Assembly (NCBI GenBank): GCA_947088345.1 | Contig: CAMUGE010000034.1 | Location: 1 to 36,243 of the forward strand | DNA length: 36,243 bases | Direction of reading: 5' to 3' | From: an uncultured Roseburia sp. | GTDB lineage: Bacteria; Bacillota; Clostridia; Lachnospirales; Lachnospiraceae | In this document: positions 20,590-35,022 of the stretch, one piece after another | Position numbering within the stretch: the first letter of the stretch is position 1 | How the letters are laid out: each line of letters opens with the position of its first letter | Translations under genes and position numbers: made by a program | The notes under the pieces: generated by a model | Database searches by the model: none | What the model was told of the DNA's origin: nothing | Seen by the model: the letters and a program-made list of their open reading frames with translations, nothing else

Positions 20590-21288
20590 TTAAAGATATT
20601 TGAGCATATCAGCTACCAGATTTGCCGAATGTTTCGCCGTCTCCCGCTCGAAAGTCGGATAATCCATCTCTGCGCTTTCATCCGCTTTATCCGATATTGC
20701 CCGAATAATCACAAAGGGAATCTTGTTTAAATATGCCGCATGAGCGATGGCAGCGCCTTCCATTTCAGCGCAGTCGCCATGAAACTGTGAAATCAGGCGG
20801 TCTTTGACCTCTTTATTCGAGATAAACTGGTCTCCGCTGACCACACGTCCGATCATTGCATGTATACCCGCATTTACTTTTTCACACGAAGAAACGGCCT
20901 GCGACGCCATTCTCTCGTCAGCCGCAAAAGACAACGTATGAAGCTGCGGCACTTCTCCGGGCGCATACCCGAAAATCGTCACGTCTACATCATGATGAAG
21001 CGCATCTTTCGAGATCAGAATATCGCCAATATCAAGACTGGCATTTAGTGAACCAGCTACTCCAGTATTGATAATATGCGTGACACGAAACAGATCCGCC
21101 AAAATCTGCACGCAAAGCGCCGCATTGACTTTTCCGATGCCGCATCGCACAATCACAACCTCTGTTCCGTTTAAACTTCCCTCAAAAAATTCCATGCCTG
21201 CTTTTTGAACCGTATTTCTCAAAAGCATCTGCTTCTTTAACGTCTCGATTTCCAGCTCCATCGCCCCGATTATCCCGAATTTTTCCAT
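20590..21288 (-). CDS. mtnN: 5'-methylthioadenosine/S-adenosylhomocysteine nucleosidase
   Basis: 232 residues, the normal length for MTAN/Pfs. It cleaves adenine from MTA and SAH, linking methionine salvage and the LuxS/AI-2 pathway. Visible: IIGAMELEIETL at the N terminus with the catalytic Glu, NTGVAGSL, GDQFISN, AEMEGAAIAHAA (ribose-binding Met-Glu) and RAISDKADESA (catalytic Asp). I chose the ATG at 21288 with AAAGGAAC upstream; an in-frame ATG at 21336 would overlap the GH127 gene and add 16 atypical residues. It follows the GH127 gene by 17 nt, so it is probably the last gene of that transcript. Confidence 0.95.
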   Translation of the reverse strand: MEKFGIIGAMELEIETLKKQMLLRNTVQKAGMEFFEGSLNGTEVVIVRCGIGKVNAALCVQILADLFRVTHIINTGVAGSLNASLDIGDILISKDALHHDVDVTIFGYAPGEVPQLHTLSFAADERMASQAVSSCEKVNAGIHAMIGRVVSGDQFISNKEVKDRLISQFHGDCAEMEGAAIAHAAYLNKIPFVIIRAISDKADESAEMDYPTFERETAKHSANLVADMLKYL

Positions 21289-21305
21289 AAAAATATTGTT
21301 CCTTT

Positions 21306-23324
21306 CTACTGATCCGTTGTCATATATTTCATCCATACCGCCATTTCGCCCGGTTTGCGATTGCCCCAGCTGTGATACGGTACAAATGTAAGAGATGTTT
21401 CCTCTAATGCCGGCTTTTGAGCGGAATAAAGGCTTACGCTCTCCCTGCTGCTGACACGCCTGCCCGACGCGTGAAGCACTACCGTCCCTCCCATCAAATC
21501 CGGTTCAAACGTCTCCCGAACCGGCGCATTGGTATCCGCATAGAGCGCCGCTAAATTTTCTCCGTTGTCTTCCTCCTCCAGGCAATAGACAAGCGGCCCG
21601 CGCATCAGAGCTGTTTTTCCGGCGTCCGCATGAACGGCTGGGTTTGCATAAACAAACTGCGCTTTCATCTCAAATGTGAAACTAATACACTGATGGCTCC
21701 AATTTTCGCGAAAGACAGCATAACCGTGCTCCACCTGCGGCGTAACAGATTTCCCGTCTATTGTGAAACAGGGATTTTTTGCATACGCAGGGATTCGAAT
21801 CCGCAGTTCGAAAGAAGAATGCTCTGTCCCGGAGGCATCTGTTTCTGATCTCCCGGTATTATGCCGGGCCTCGTCTGCGGTATGTTTTAGTTCTCCGCCG
21901 CCGTCTACCTGCAGCTGTACTCTCCCCTCATAGGGAAATCGGCTGTCAATTTTTATAGTAAGGGGCTCTCCGTCCCGCTCTGTCTCAATCGTACATCCGG
22001 CAAACAGATTCAGCCAGAGCGCATTCTTCTCAACAAAGCAGACATACTCGCCCAGTGAGGCAAGTGTTCTTGTTATATTCGGCGGGCAGCAGGCACAGCC
22101 GAACCATTTCTGCCGAATCGGCTTAATGTGATTCTTATCCGTCATGGGAATACAGTTCCGGGGCCAGACCTCGAGCGGATTTACATAGAAGAAGCTTTTC
22201 CCGTCCATCGCAATCCCGGACAGCACCGTATTCATAAGCGCAAGTTCCATTGTATCAATATAACCGGCATCTCCGCTGATCTGTGCCATTCGCCTGCAAA
22301 AAAGCGCAAATCCAATTGACGCACAACTCTCGGAATAATTGGTATCGTTTGGCAAATCGTAATCAACGGTAAACCTCTCTAATATGCCGGAACTGCCAAT
22401 TCCGCCGGTAAGGTACATTCTTTTTTCTACAATATTGCGGTACAGATTTTCACAGGCCTGCCATAGAGCCAAATCCTGGTAAGCATACGCCAGGTCCGCC
22501 ATAGCGCAGTAGAGGTAGACGGCACGTACGGCATGGCCTTCCGCGGTTTTTTGTTCCCGCACAGGCAGATGATTTTGTCCGTATACATTTAAGTATGGAT
22601 TTTTATCATGCCATACGTCAATATAATCGTCCCTGTCGCTCTCCGTAAACAGGTAATTCGGTTCGCATCCTCTGCGGTTGATAAAATCAAATGCCATGCT
22701 GCGGTATTTCTCTTCCCCTGTGACATCGGCAAGTTTTACCAGCGCAAGCTCAATTTCCTCATGGCCGCAAACCGCATTTTCATAACGACTGGTATGAAAA
22801 ACATCGCAGATCAGATCAGCCGTCTTTCTCATGATGTTTAAAAATCTGTCTTTGCCGGTCACTTTATAGTAGGCGACAGCGGCTTCGATAAAGTGACCGG
22901 CCGTATATAGCTCATGTCCCTCTTTTAAGTTTTTAAACTGTCTGCCCGGATATCCTATGGTAAAACATGTGTTAAGATAGCCGTTTTCTTCCTGTGCACT
23001 GCCAACCAGTTCGATTGCTTCGTCCGCAAGCTTTTCCAAGTTGGTATTCTGTTCATAGGAAAGGGAATATGCGACGGCCTCCAGCCATTTTGCCAGATCC
23101 GTATCCTGAAAAACCCATCCTGAGAAATCGCCCTGCTCTAACCCTGCTGCAATACGAAAGTTGGAAATGCAGTGACTTGGCTCGGCATCTTCCACCTGGT
23201 CGTTTAACGCTCTCCACTGGTACGGGATAATCTCCGCTGTCACAAGCTTTGTATAGCGGTTCCAAAATGCATCTTCTATCCTAATATGGTTCAATGATAT
23301 TAATTCCGGTTTTAATTTTCTCAC
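21306..23324 (-). CDS. GH127 family beta-L-arabinofuranosidase (DUF1680)
   Basis: 672 residues, family length. The enzyme would remove beta-L-arabinofuranose from short oligosaccharides, such as those of plant hydroxyproline-rich glycoproteins. Visible: an (alpha/alpha)6-type catalytic domain with EGHELYTAGHFIEAAVAYY, GHAVRAVYLY, LTGGIGSSG, and NYSESCASIG containing a conserved Glu. The zinc-binding cysteines are in WFGCACCPPNITR. The C-terminal third is beta-rich. No signal peptide is visible, so it acts inside the cell on imported sugars. The start is GTG at 23324 with GGGGG about 8 nt upstream, just 15 nt after the VanW gene. GH127 and VanW are not known partners; the linkage may be only positional. 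Confidence 0.92.
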   Translation of the reverse strand: MRKLKPELISLNHIRIEDAFWNRYTKLVTAEIIPYQWRALNDQVEDAEPSHCISNFRIAAGLEQGDFSGWVFQDTDLAKWLEAVAYSLSYEQNTNLEKLADEAIELVGSAQEENGYLNTCFTIGYPGRQFKNLKEGHELYTAGHFIEAAVAYYKVTGKDRFLNIMRKTADLICDVFHTSRYENAVCGHEEIELALVKLADVTGEEKYRSMAFDFINRRGCEPNYLFTESDRDDYIDVWHDKNPYLNVYGQNHLPVREQKTAEGHAVRAVYLYCAMADLAYAYQDLALWQACENLYRNIVEKRMYLTGGIGSSGILERFTVDYDLPNDTNYSESCASIGFALFCRRMAQISGDAGYIDTMELALMNTVLSGIAMDGKSFFYVNPLEVWPRNCIPMTDKNHIKPIRQKWFGCACCPPNITRTLASLGEYVCFVEKNALWLNLFAGCTIETERDGEPLTIKIDSRFPYEGRVQLQVDGGGELKHTADEARHNTGRSETDASGTEHSSFELRIRIPAYAKNPCFTIDGKSVTPQVEHGYAVFRENWSHQCISFTFEMKAQFVYANPAVHADAGKTALMRGPLVYCLEEEDNGENLAALYADTNAPVRETFEPDLMGGTVVLHASGRRVSSRESVSLYSAQKPALEETSLTFVPYHSWGNRKPGEMAVWMKYMTTDQ

Positions 23325-29954: not shown

Positions 29955-29988
29955 AAAAAAATGTAACGCCTGAAATACAGGCGTTACA
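29955..29988 (-). terminator. Rho-independent terminator of the CCHH-repeat gene
   Basis: Perfect 11-bp stem (TGTAACGCCTG 29962-29972, CAGGCGTTACA 29978-29988), 5-nt loop, followed on the minus strand by seven T. It starts 8 nt after the stop. Confidence 0.9.
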
Positions 29989-29996
29989 TTTTGTGA

Positions 29997-30902
29997 TTAA
30001 TGATGTCTGCCGCCATGGTGACGACCGCCGCCATGATGATGCGATCCGCTGATATTGCATCCTGCTACACCACAATTGTTATGCGCATGATCTCCGACAA
30101 TCGTACAGCCGCCGATTCCGCAGCTTCCATGCGTGTGTTCGCCTGTAACGGCACACCCGTCTATCCCGCAGGTGTTATGCGCATGATCTCCGACAATCGT
30201 ACAGCCGCCGATTCCGCAGCTTCCATGCGTGTGTTCGCCTGTAACGGCACACCCGTCTATCCCGCAGGTGTTATGCGCATGATCTCCGACAATCGTACAG
30301 CCGCCGATTCCGCAGCTTCCATGCGTGTGTTCGCCTGTAACGGCACACCCGTCTATCCCGCAGGTGTTATGCGCATGATCTCCAACGATGGCACAGCCGC
30401 TGATCCCACAGTTCCCATGCGTGTGTTCGCCTGTAATCGTACAGCCGTCCACATCACAGGTATTATGCTTATGATCTCCGACAATCGTACAGCCGCTGAT
30501 CCCGCAGCTCCCGTGCGTATGCGGCTCCGTAATAGCACAGCCGTTAATCCCGCAATTGTAGGCAACAGTGGTTATTACCTCTTTTTTTGCAAAATTTTGT
30601 GTTCCGCAGTCATGATATCTGTGGCCGTCATTCCTGTGATGGCCATAATAGTATACGCCCTCATGTGAATGGCAGGAAGTATCCATACAGCCTGAGATAC
30701 CGCAGATCGTATGCTCGTGTACCCCCACCACGGTGCATTCTGTTATGTCACAATAATGTTGATGATCCCCTGGTCTTGTGCACCCCTCCACTTGACAGAC
30801 AACCTCGCGCGGAACCGAAATAGGCGCATTGGAGACGCCTGAAGATCCGCTCATTCCTGCCAGCAGCGCAATGACACCGCAAAATGTAACCATCCATCTC
30901 AT
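29997..30902 (-). CDS. Secreted array of 14 Cys2-His2-like modules with His-rich tail
   Basis: 301 residues; family not recognised. A signal peptide (MRWMVTFCGVIALLAGMSG) opens it. The rest is 14 copies of C-x4-C-x5-H-x-H, for example CGISGCTIVGDHKH, usually joined by one or two residues, so the unit is about 16 residues. Two types alternate: IDGCAVTGEHTH and IGGCTIVGDHAH. One insertion after the third copy holds GHHRNDGHRYHDC. The tail reads HHHGGGRHHGGRHH. The pattern strongly suggests binding of zinc or another soft or borderline metal, outside the cell. I chose the ATG at 30902 with AAAGGAGAGGG upstream; a start at 30962 would place a charged stretch before the signal. It stands alone with a terminator. 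Confidence 0.8.
   Translation of the reverse strand: MRWMVTFCGVIALLAGMSGSSGVSNAPISVPREVVCQVEGCTRPGDHQHYCDITECTVVGVHEHTICGISGCMDTSCHSHEGVYYYGHHRNDGHRYHDCGTQNFAKKEVITTVAYNCGINGCAITEPHTHGSCGISGCTIVGDHKHNTCDVDGCTITGEHTHGNCGISGCAIVGDHAHNTCGIDGCAVTGEHTHGSCGIGGCTIVGDHAHNTCGIDGCAVTGEHTHGSCGIGGCTIVGDHAHNTCGIDGCAVTGEHTHGSCGIGGCTIVGDHAHNNCGVAGCNISGSHHHGGGRHHGGRHH
30081..30368. repeat. Three identical 96-bp tandem repeats inside the CCHH gene
   Basis: The units 30081-30176, 30177-30272 and 30273-30368 are identical base for base. Each encodes two CCHH modules (32 residues). A fourth unit (30369-30464) and further ones are diverged, so the three are a recent expansion. Copy number is likely to vary between strains. 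Confidence 0.95.
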
Positions 30903-31059
30903 AATTACCCTCTCCTTTCCCTGTGTTTTAGTCATTATAGCATCGTTAACGGCCGCCATCAACCACTATTTCATATATTTCCTGAAAAACCGGGATTTTT
31001 CTTACTTTTTACTCCCACTCTCAGTAATTGAAACTTCAAAACTAAACTCTAAATAGGTT

Positions 31060-33195: not shown

Positions 33196-35022
33196 ACGGC
33201 CGACTTAAAAAAGGTTCTGCATCTGGCAGGAGTGAACTGGCGCACAATGGCAGGATTTGAACTGCTGTACAAATTTTTATCGCTGACAATTGTTACGCCG
33301 CTTTTCTGGGCAATGTTTAACGGCATCCTGCATATTACCGGCTACGAATACCTGACAAAGGAAAATATTTTGTCGTTTCTGCTCAATCCCGTTACAATTG
33401 CTGCGTTGGCGCTGTTATTTTTATGTATGGCAATCTACACGATGATTGATATCGGCCCCGTCATTTTTCTGCTTGACCAGTCCTGCCAGGGAATCAGGGT
33501 CAGTTTGCTGCAGACAGCAGCTTTTGCCTTGAAAAATGCGGGCAGGGTATTTCAATTCAGAAATGTTTTTACAGCGTTTGTCGTATTGTTTCTGATCCCG
33601 TTTTTAAATATTGGCGTTGCGTCAAGTTATGTGAGCGCGATTTCCGTCCCGGAATTTATCCTGGATTTTATTGCAGCAAACAAATTTTTACTTTTCCTGT
33701 TCATCGCCGCAATGGCAGGGCTGACTGCTCTGCTCTTGCGCTGGCTGTATGCATTCCATTATTTTACGCTGGAGGGCTGCAATTTTAAGGAAGCTCGTAA
33801 GAAAAGCGCCCGTTTAAGTCATAAAAGCAAGCGGAAAGACATTGCTTTTTTGCTGGGCACGCAGCTTCTAATTGCGCTGCTTTTTTTTCTATTGAATCTG
33901 ATCGGCATTGTTTTTGCTTTTTTGCTGGGCGAACTGTTTTCCAAACTGCAGCTGCTTGGCATTGTGTCGGCATCTGTTGTCTGGGTCTTTCTGGCCGCGT
34001 CATCTTTTTTGATGTCTGCGCTTGGCACTCCGATCAGCTATGCATGCATCAGCTTTCTGTTTTATGGTCATAAAAATAAAAAACAGGAAGAAATCCTGCA
34101 CATACAGACAGACGGATGCAGTCCAAACAAGCTGAAACGCTCCGCAGCCATCACACTGGAGATATTGCTCTTCACCTGCTGCGTATTTTGCTGCAGCTTC
34201 TACCTGTATGGCGTCTGCCACCATAAAATAAGTCTGCCGGTCGAACATTTCGGCACAATGGAAGTGACTGCACACCGCGGCGCATCGCGCTTCTATCCGT
34301 AAAACACCATGGCAGCTTTCGAAGGGGCAAAAGAACTGGGCGCCGACTGGATAGAGCTCGACGTTCAGCAAAGCAAAGACGGACAGATCTTTGTGATGCA
34401 TGACGCCAACTTTATGCGGACAGCCGGCATCGACTGTAAGACGTGGGAGTTAACTTATAATAAAATAAGCCGCCTGGACGCCGGCAGCTTCTTTGACATA
34501 AAATTTAACGGAGAAAAAATTCCGTTGTTGACAGAAACAATCGCTTTCGCAAAAGACAATCATATCAAACTGAATATTGAACTCAAACCGACCGGACACG
34601 AAGAAAAATTTGAAAAAACAGTCGTGGATATGATCAATCAGGAACATTTCCGGGAACAATGCGTGATCACTTCTCAGGTTTATGAAGTTTTGGAACGTGT
34701 AAAAGCTTACGACCCGCAGATTCAGACTGTCTATGTGATGAGTCTTGCCTACGGAAATATCAACCGTCTTGCTGCAGCAGATAATTTCAGTATCGAGGCG
34801 ACAAGCGTTACAGAAAAGATTGTCTCCGATGTCCACAATGCCGGAAAACAGCTGTATGCATGGACTGTAAACACAGAAGAAAATATAAACCGCATGATTG
34901 ATCCTGGTGTGGATAATATTATAACGGACGATGTAACCCTTGCAAAAGAATGTATCTACCTGAGTAAGACGAGCGATGTGTTCGAAGAATACATAAAATG
35001 GCTGTCACAGAACACCACTTAA
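33196..35022 (+). pseudogene. Membrane glycerophosphodiester phosphodiesterase, start lost and interrupted
   Basis: One reading frame encodes a multi-span N-terminal domain (residues about 1-345, about six to eight helices) and a complete C-terminal GDPD catalytic domain, the usual membrane-anchored GDPD architecture. Two lesions are visible. First, the codon 6 nt after GGAGG (33185-33189) is ACG at 33196, where ATG is expected; the next in-frame start is GTG at 33232. Second, codon 34300-34302 is TAA where the family motif HRGASRFYP-E-NT has Glu (GAA to TAA is one change). Downstream the frame is intact, with metal ligands in WIELDVQ, VMHD and LNIELKP, up to 35022. An ATG at 34309 could restart translation, but that product would lack the HRG His. 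Confidence 0.8.

Follow-up and report, generated by a model that had tools for sequence, protein, structure and literature searches.

A probably secreted C-x4-C-x5-H-x-H array protein of an uncultured Roseburia sp. and its possible kinship with effectors of histidine-tailed sigma/anti-sigma sensors

Introduction

The window, a 36,243-nucleotide stretch of DNA from an uncultured Roseburia sp. (NCBI GenBank assembly GCA_947088345.1, contig CAMUGE010000034.1), carries a gene for a 301-residue protein with 14 C-x4-C-x5-H-x-H modules. Reading its function from its anatomy and its relatives, we consider it probable that the protein is a secreted multi-site metal buffer, probably for zinc, and that some members of its family are effectors of His-tailed sigma/anti-sigma sensors. 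A wider proposal, which we hold more tentatively, as a serious possibility, is that these proteins belong to an undescribed extracytoplasmic metal-homeostasis circuit widespread in gut Clostridia. In such a circuit, His-tailed RsgI-like anti-sigma factors or a BlaR1-like protease would act on SigI or ECF sigma factors with tiny regulons, which in turn would control small secreted Cys/His or Cys/Asp buffers. The C-x4-C-x5-H-x-H array would then be one interchangeable effector, with 14 sites in the window species.

Architecture of the window protein

The gene is located on the minus strand at 29997..30902 (ATG at 30902, stop codon at 29999-29997), with an SD-like GGAGAGG upstream. Its product begins with a signal-like N terminus (residues 1-25, boundary inferred; 30828..30902, minus strand), in which one Arg is followed by a hydrophobic segment (highest Kyte-Doolittle mean over 12 residues 2.5, starting at residue 4), and the signal peptide named in an earlier, sequence-only reading of the DNA is thus retained as a prediction from hydropathy. 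That reading had also counted 14 modules, and exactly 14 C-x4-C-x5-H-x-H matches are present in the translation, starting at residues 36, 51, 67, 117, 133, 149, 165, 181, 197, 213, 229, 245, 261 and 277; when residues 25-301 were shuffled 5000 times, the pattern occurred 0.056 times on average and at most twice. The regularity ascribed to the modules holds for modules 4-14 (residues 117-290; 30033..30554, minus strand), which follow one another at a strict 16-residue spacing, and not for modules 1-3 (residues 36-80; 30663..30797, minus strand), which are divergent and spaced by 15-16 residues. Similarly, the two alternating variants are confined to modules 5-13 and do not extend over the whole array; at the DNA level they correspond to a tandem repeat with a 96-bp unit (4.6 copies, 91% matches). 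Modules 3 and 4 are separated by a linker of 36 residues containing YYYGHHRNDGHRYHDCG (residues 81-116; 30555..30662, minus strand), and in alignment A1 a GxYYxxH..DGHxYH linker is common to the window protein and several relatives. The translation ends in the His-rich tail already noticed in that reading, GGGRHHGGRHH (30000..30032, minus strand).

The spacing is indeed unlike that of the classical C2H2 zinc finger (C-x2-4-C-x12-H-x3-5-H), and the statement that the array belongs to no named family is borne out by searches of Pfam, NCBIfam and PDB sequences, in which nothing exceeded threshold for the window protein. YmaF (PF12788), the only Pfam family listed for it at E up to 10, was rejected (12.9 bits against a gathering cut-off of 27, E=0.17); among 18 proteins scanned singly, the window protein was the one that responded to YmaF at E<=1. 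No Pfam or NCBIfam family is common to these 18 proteins, one of which gave a Zn_ribbon_RRN7 match (E=0.00036). Membership in the polyhistidine triad (Pht) proteins was also rejected, the repeated unit being C-x4-C-x5-H-x-H and not HxxHxH, with no Pht match in Pfam or NCBIfam, as was membership in the Cys-every-fifth RiPP family NF038108 (6.6 bits against an NCBIfam cut-off of 30, E=7.1). An AlphaFold2 model of the window protein, of moderate confidence in the array, is a beta-solenoid without a metal site (pLDDT 60, about 73 in the array); nothing is drawn from this fold, because it is of a type that AlphaFold2 overpredicts for repeat sequences, according to an excerpt of PMC11795689.

Expression signals and surroundings of the window gene

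The window gene looks real. A sigma-A-like promoter, TTGATG-17-TATAAT, lies at 30934..30962 (minus strand), and the promoter-to-start stretch is nearly identical in the sister species G051, with three differences between the -35 element and the start codon. Support for this promoter comes from that near-identity, because sites of its type number four in the scanned region against 2.2 in shuffles. An intrinsic terminator with a 15-pair stem followed by a U-tract is found at 29955..29992 (minus strand; -21.3 kcal/mol, none of 200 shuffles equally stable), and a similar sequence follows the G051 gene; the list produced by a terminator scan of the region does not contain this hairpin. The N-terminal part of the protein is 85% identical between the two species (148 residues), and over these 148 codons dN is 0.086 and dS 0.829, giving a dN/dS of about 0.10. 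The G051 gene is split into two pieces at contig ends (L007 and L057), as expected from a repeat. The window gene stands alone with its own promoter-like and terminator signals. On the same strand it is preceded by a gene for an O6-methylguanine methyltransferase and followed by a Nudix gene, beyond which lie genes for IspD and a zinc-type alcohol dehydrogenase. Elsewhere in the window, a 25-base tandem repeat of two copies (33224-33272) spans the start of an ORF at 33232.

Distribution and conservation of the module family

Relatives with 1-14 modules were found in 32 sampled genomes, 30 of which belong to the Lachnospiraceae, the family of the window species, and two of which belong to other families (G479 and G731). 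The genus, family and class samples behind this number overlap. In the genus, five of 62 genomes were positive, the window's own included. The family sample gave 9 of 397 genomes with the protein as query, and the profile search that the sequence-only reading had suggested, run with motif-based profiles, gave 14 of 397 genomes with profile A1 and 17 of 248 with profile A3 in a 98%-complete sample. The class sample matched in 8 of 391 genomes, three of them with module ORFs, the window's own included. The class-sample matches in G461, G538, G547, G579 and G832, which hold no module ORF, were rejected, as were those of the protein query in G194 and G311, which are frames antisense to Pro/Asp-rich ORFs. 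The 32 genomes include G400 and G076, found later beside RsgI, and omit G408 and G263. The former encodes a VWA-type surface protein with a cluster of irregular module-like Cys/His stretches (L115:2-2578), the latter a lipoprotein-like peptide of 64 residues that has one C4C5HxH module and a tail rich in His, Asp and Glu (L116:7953-8144). The single relative returned by a contig scan, L002, coincides with the G863 locus. A phage origin of the module gene was considered and dropped; a tblastn search of phages gave no match, and none of the 11 pattern stretches in viral contigs is a relative. Among plasmids, eight records matched at 21-33% identity, several of them SdrD- or VWA-like. The Bacillus pumilus plasmid NZ_LR026976.1 has a tblastn match at 21040-21429 (33% identity), one of five places in that record.

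Most of the relatives read have a signal-like start, many with HGHG soon after it, and many have His-rich ends, in a number of cases HHGG-type tails like that of the window protein. In relatives the unit extends to C-x4-C-x5-H-x-H-x-G-x-x-Y-x-x-H, partly followed by DGHxYH, and alignment A1, built from 11 chosen segments, shows no variation in the ligands of either module or in one further His and one Tyr. All four ligands are present at 121 of the 124 sites that have at least three, in a count that is not blind, since the proteins were found with motif profiles, that includes non-independent repeats of one protein, and that used 28 of the 32 relatives (G052, G393, G441 and G076 omitted, and G051 represented by its C-terminal piece only). 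The three exceptional sites are a G731 module with an extra residue between its His residues and two chance-looking sites in G868. When C-C spacers of 2-6 and C-H spacers of 3-7 residues were allowed, they were 4 and 5 in 107 of 108 patterns. Judged from sequence, metal binding by these modules is likely, and both the predicted secretion and the putative metal-binding unit are supported indirectly.

Histidine-tailed sensors beside module genes

Up to 20 kb around the module gene were fetched from 29 further genomes and from G408 and G263, and mainly four genes on each side were read; 29 neighbourhood proteins, four of them window neighbours, and nine regulators were scanned against Pfam, and the others were read by eye. 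At most loci, the window's included, there is no recurring neighbour. Transmembrane regulators adjoin 11 of the 32 relatives, or 9 of 30 once the two found by way of RsgI are removed: SigI/RsgI in six cases, an ECF sigma factor with an RsgI-like anti-sigma factor in four and BlaI/BlaR1 in one. SigI and RsgI are encoded divergently from the module gene in G731, G303, G107, G421, G400 and G076. In G158, G479, G842 and G866, the module gene comes first, with the ECF sigma factor and membrane anti-sigma genes directly downstream, and in G286 (L065:8322-10741) the order is BlaI, module protein, BlaR1/M56. The C termini of all 11 linked sensors are His-rich tails, such as HHGGGHHEAITLP, KHHSGKKDHHGHEKHEDSE and HHSERHRFRHHGGQ; the M56 sensor of G286 has this feature as well and is of a type unrelated to RsgI. 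Pfam identified Sigma70, Peptidase_M56 and Penicillinase_R among the linked regulators. RsgI_M scored 92.6-100.7 bits in five scanned linked sensors (cut-off 25.3) and exceeded its cut-off at eight linked loci, and also in G400 and G076. RsgI_N exceeded its cut-off in two of three SigI partners and fell 0.6 bit below it in the third. The NPS site of RsgI is an autocleavage site, and an NPS motif is present in the eight linked RsgI-type proteins examined.

Promoter motifs of linked genes

A SigI-type -35/-10 pair, [AG]CCC[CT] ... CGTA, precedes all six module genes that diverge from SigI, and the strict A-tract pattern is found before four of them; elsewhere the strict pattern occurs before the G316 module gene, a gene in L204 and sigI in L222. 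The promoters of the SigI-divergent genes agree with the rule for published SigI promoters, in which the -35 element has an A-tract and the -10 element CGWA, as stated in an excerpt of PMC10575876.

A second motif, TGMAAGGWW-N14-CGTRT, here called the ECF motif, is located before all four ECF-linked module genes and before the unlinked ones of G060 and G052. A search of both strands of the fetched sequence (1.88 Mb) gave 23 occurrences of it, of which 20 lie before genes for secreted-type Cys/His or Cys/Asp proteins and the remaining three before a sigma factor gene whose anti-sigma factor is not His-tailed (G356, G360 and G171). Because the fetched loci were chosen around such systems, a genome-wide scan matters more: across 30 chosen genomes the motif matched 30 times, in 21 genomes, and the reversed pattern 11 times, and 20 of the 30 motif matches precede secreted-type Cys/His or Cys/Asp genes. 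The exact motif marks one or two secreted-type targets per genome. It is absent from nine of the 30 genomes, eight of which encode a His-tailed anti-sigma factor, and its best match before seven other module genes, including that of G286, has 3-4 mismatches. Nineteen of the 32 relatives have neither an adjoining sensor nor an exact ECF motif. Two motif-bearing genes lie off the contig of the sole RsgI_M gene found, namely a gene for a secreted DADGDGICD-type protein in G118 and the module gene of G060. Since the motif-bearing module gene and the only RsgI_M gene of G060 are on different contigs, control in trans is likely in this species of the window's genus.

The window gene itself is adjoined by no sensor. 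ECF-motif control of it was rejected, with no exact match in the window genome (G000) and with both G051 matches preceding unrelated-looking ORFs. The sole RsgI_M protein of the window genome has a long tail with one His in its last 40 residues. Because the genome has no exact motif and its single RsgI_M tail is not His-rich, the window copy seems to be uncoupled from sigma/anti-sigma control, or else its regulator is missing from the assembly, which is 90.5% complete. We infer the regulation of the window gene from relatives only, and on the best reading it is an array-expanded member of the family with a sigma-A-like promoter and no sign of sensor control.

Histidine-rich tails and secreted-type partners

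RsgI_M searches were positive in 18 of the 29 module genomes (29 places) and in 86 of 248 family genomes (121 places). The test set comprised 97 distinct RsgI_M proteins, drawn from the module-genome loci and from the best ~81 of the 121 places, with three non-His-tailed proteins of G051 and G237 left out. A protein was called His-tailed if it had at least four His in its last 40 residues, a rule set after earlier tail data had been seen, and a partner was defined mechanically as a small ORF at most 1500 bases away with a signal-like start and at least four His in its last 30 residues. A partner accompanies 29 of the 35 His-tailed proteins and 4 of the 62 others (p=1e-14, genome kinship not corrected). 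When the eight proteins found via module genes are set aside, 21 of 27 His-tailed proteins have a partner, and with four doubtful ORFs counted as none the number is 17 of 27 (p=4e-8). Partner matches that look antisense by eye are those of four controls and four His-tailed proteins (G093, G368, G894 and G126); partners seen by eye fall below the rule in G350, G850, G368, G427, G334 and G126, and some of the control proteins lie near contig ends. Under the same tail rule, eight of eight linked RsgI_M proteins are His-tailed against 27 of 89 others; a first small test of the tail His fraction in linked and unlinked proteins (8 vs 13, with 8 of 29 unparsed) had given p=0.07.

Twenty-two of the His-tailed proteins come from genomes outside the module-search matches, and partners are of several types: C4C5HxH modules, DxDGDGxCD repeats and CxYH..CxxYCxxH. 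Because there are several kinds of partner, the module family appears to be one effector type of a wider arrangement, and the effector types of His-tailed RsgI-like anti-sigma factors seem to be interchangeable; DxDGDGxCD partners suggest calcium, and therefore the shared signal need not be zinc. Partners of the DxDGDGxCD or CxYH..CxxYCxxH type are found in L210 (G885), L211 (G237), L213 (G060), L214 (G868) and L225 (G878), and further in L188 (G118), L186 (G256), L171 (G845) and L180 (G350). RsgI_M proteins that occur two per locus form a different tail class, many with long, repetitive Asp/Tyr/Asn-rich tails (DTDYGPNNDGVTDY), in L194, L201, L203-L206 and L209 (G064, G093, G089, G429, G407, G847 and G859).

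Proposed mechanism and alternative explanations

We hypothesize that every C-x4-C-x5-H-x-H module binds a soft divalent metal, most likely zinc, at a Cys2His2-type site of its own; one molecule of the window protein would then hold about 14 ions, plus some on its His tail. The protein belongs to a family, dispersed among gut Clostridia, of small, probably secreted proteins rich in Cys and His, and in a third of its members the module gene seems to be the main target of the adjoining His-tailed sensor. Metal, or metal-linked envelope stress, may act on the His tail of the sensor, upon which the sigma factor would be freed and the secreted Cys/His protein made; the latter would buffer metal outside the membrane and quench the signal, a homeostatic logic. 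In RsgI, an outside signal leads to autocleavage and membrane proteolysis and so to release of the sigma factor, according to the available part of PMC12203970.

The modules could instead form a disulfide-linked extracellular structural or adhesive repeat protein, with the Cys paired and the His serving wall binding. Exported proteins are often disulfide-bonded, the window protein has an even number of Cys (30 after residue 25), and similar Cys/His stretches occur in the VWA-type surface protein of G408. We nonetheless regard this explanation as unlikely: the number of Cys after residue 25 is odd in three relatives (25 in G316, 13 in G286 and 13 in G369), the two His are conserved along with the two Cys, and the hosts, as Lachnospiraceae, are probably strict anaerobes. 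It is improbable, too, that sensor and secreted protein work through protonation of the His in their His-rich tails, as a pH or envelope-stress module in which metal plays no part. Fermenters acidify their surroundings, and such tails are common to three sensor types whose partner motifs differ (C4C5HxH, DxDGDGxCD and CxYH..), but the strict C-C-H-H spacing would be left unexplained.

Metal capture was the theme of the sequence-only reading, which had proposed a metallophore-like or scavenging role, and a zinc-scavenging feeder that passes zinc to an uptake transporter has a parallel in streptococcal Pht, a surface protein of short His-motif units that delivers zinc to AdcAII, as described in an excerpt of PMC3842936. 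The neighbourhoods lend no support to such a role. Beside the module genes no uptake transporter was recognised in about 30 neighbourhoods, mostly read by eye, and metal transporters of any kind were recognised in two, none directly adjacent: genes for cation-transporting P-type ATPases, at a distance of about 3 kb (G430, L074:3204-6572; G107, L075:13219-15831) and, next to that of G430, a gene for a putative manganese efflux pump. With the module also lacking HxxHxH and matching no Pht model, we hold a feeder to be quite improbable, and scavenging in general to be less likely than sensing or buffering. A RiPP-like multi-core precursor of a modified peptide is very improbable indeed; it would suit the Cys-rich repeats and the sub-threshold Cys-every-fifth RiPP match, but not the signal-like start of the window protein, and inspection by eye showed no peptide-modifying enzyme next to the window gene or in the other neighbourhoods that were read. 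A spore-coat protein was considered and dropped on reading of the neighbours. A secreted metal buffer is the reading that we prefer.

Relation to known systems and significance

The linked systems resemble SigI/RsgI of Bacillus and Clostridium thermocellum in having a sigma factor and an RsgI_N/RsgI_M anti-sigma factor beside the relatives, NPS(I/V) near the start of the RsgI_M domain and an A-tract/CGWA-type promoter. They differ in the short His-rich tail of the linked sensors, in having a small secreted Cys/His protein as target, and in the ECF sigma factor of four of the ten RsgI-type linked systems. An extracytoplasmic metal-binding protein in the loop of a transmembrane regulator is known from CnrYXH-type metal-sensing ECF systems and from ZraP/ZraSR, and the proposed circuit would work like ZraP or CnrX, a likeness of logic and not of compared sequences. 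The outer domains of the described C. thermocellum RsgI sensors are carbohydrate-binding, hydrolase-like, peptidase-like or of no assigned kind, as listed in the available part of PMC12203970. Streptococcal Pht proteins are likewise surface proteins of short metal-site units (excerpt of PMC3842936), but their HxxHxH units have Glu and no Cys in the site, and they are encoded with AdcAII. Ts-PCHTP of Trichinella spiralis is, by the title of PMC2954182, a secreted poly-Cys, His-tailed metalloprotein; it is an animal parasite protein, likened here by description only. In searches of the open literature, we found no paper joining RsgI, anti-sigma factors and histidine-rich proteins, and none on secreted histidine-rich metal proteins with anti-sigma factors in Firmicutes. 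As far as open papers show, the link of the array to His-tailed sigma/anti-sigma sensors is undescribed.

Hosts and microbes compete for zinc in the gut. If the proposal is true, it would give a function and a signal class to orphan RsgI-like anti-sigma factors of gut bacteria, whose characterised C. thermocellum relatives sense carbohydrates, and extracellular metal control in the gut would gain a route that runs through sigma factors.
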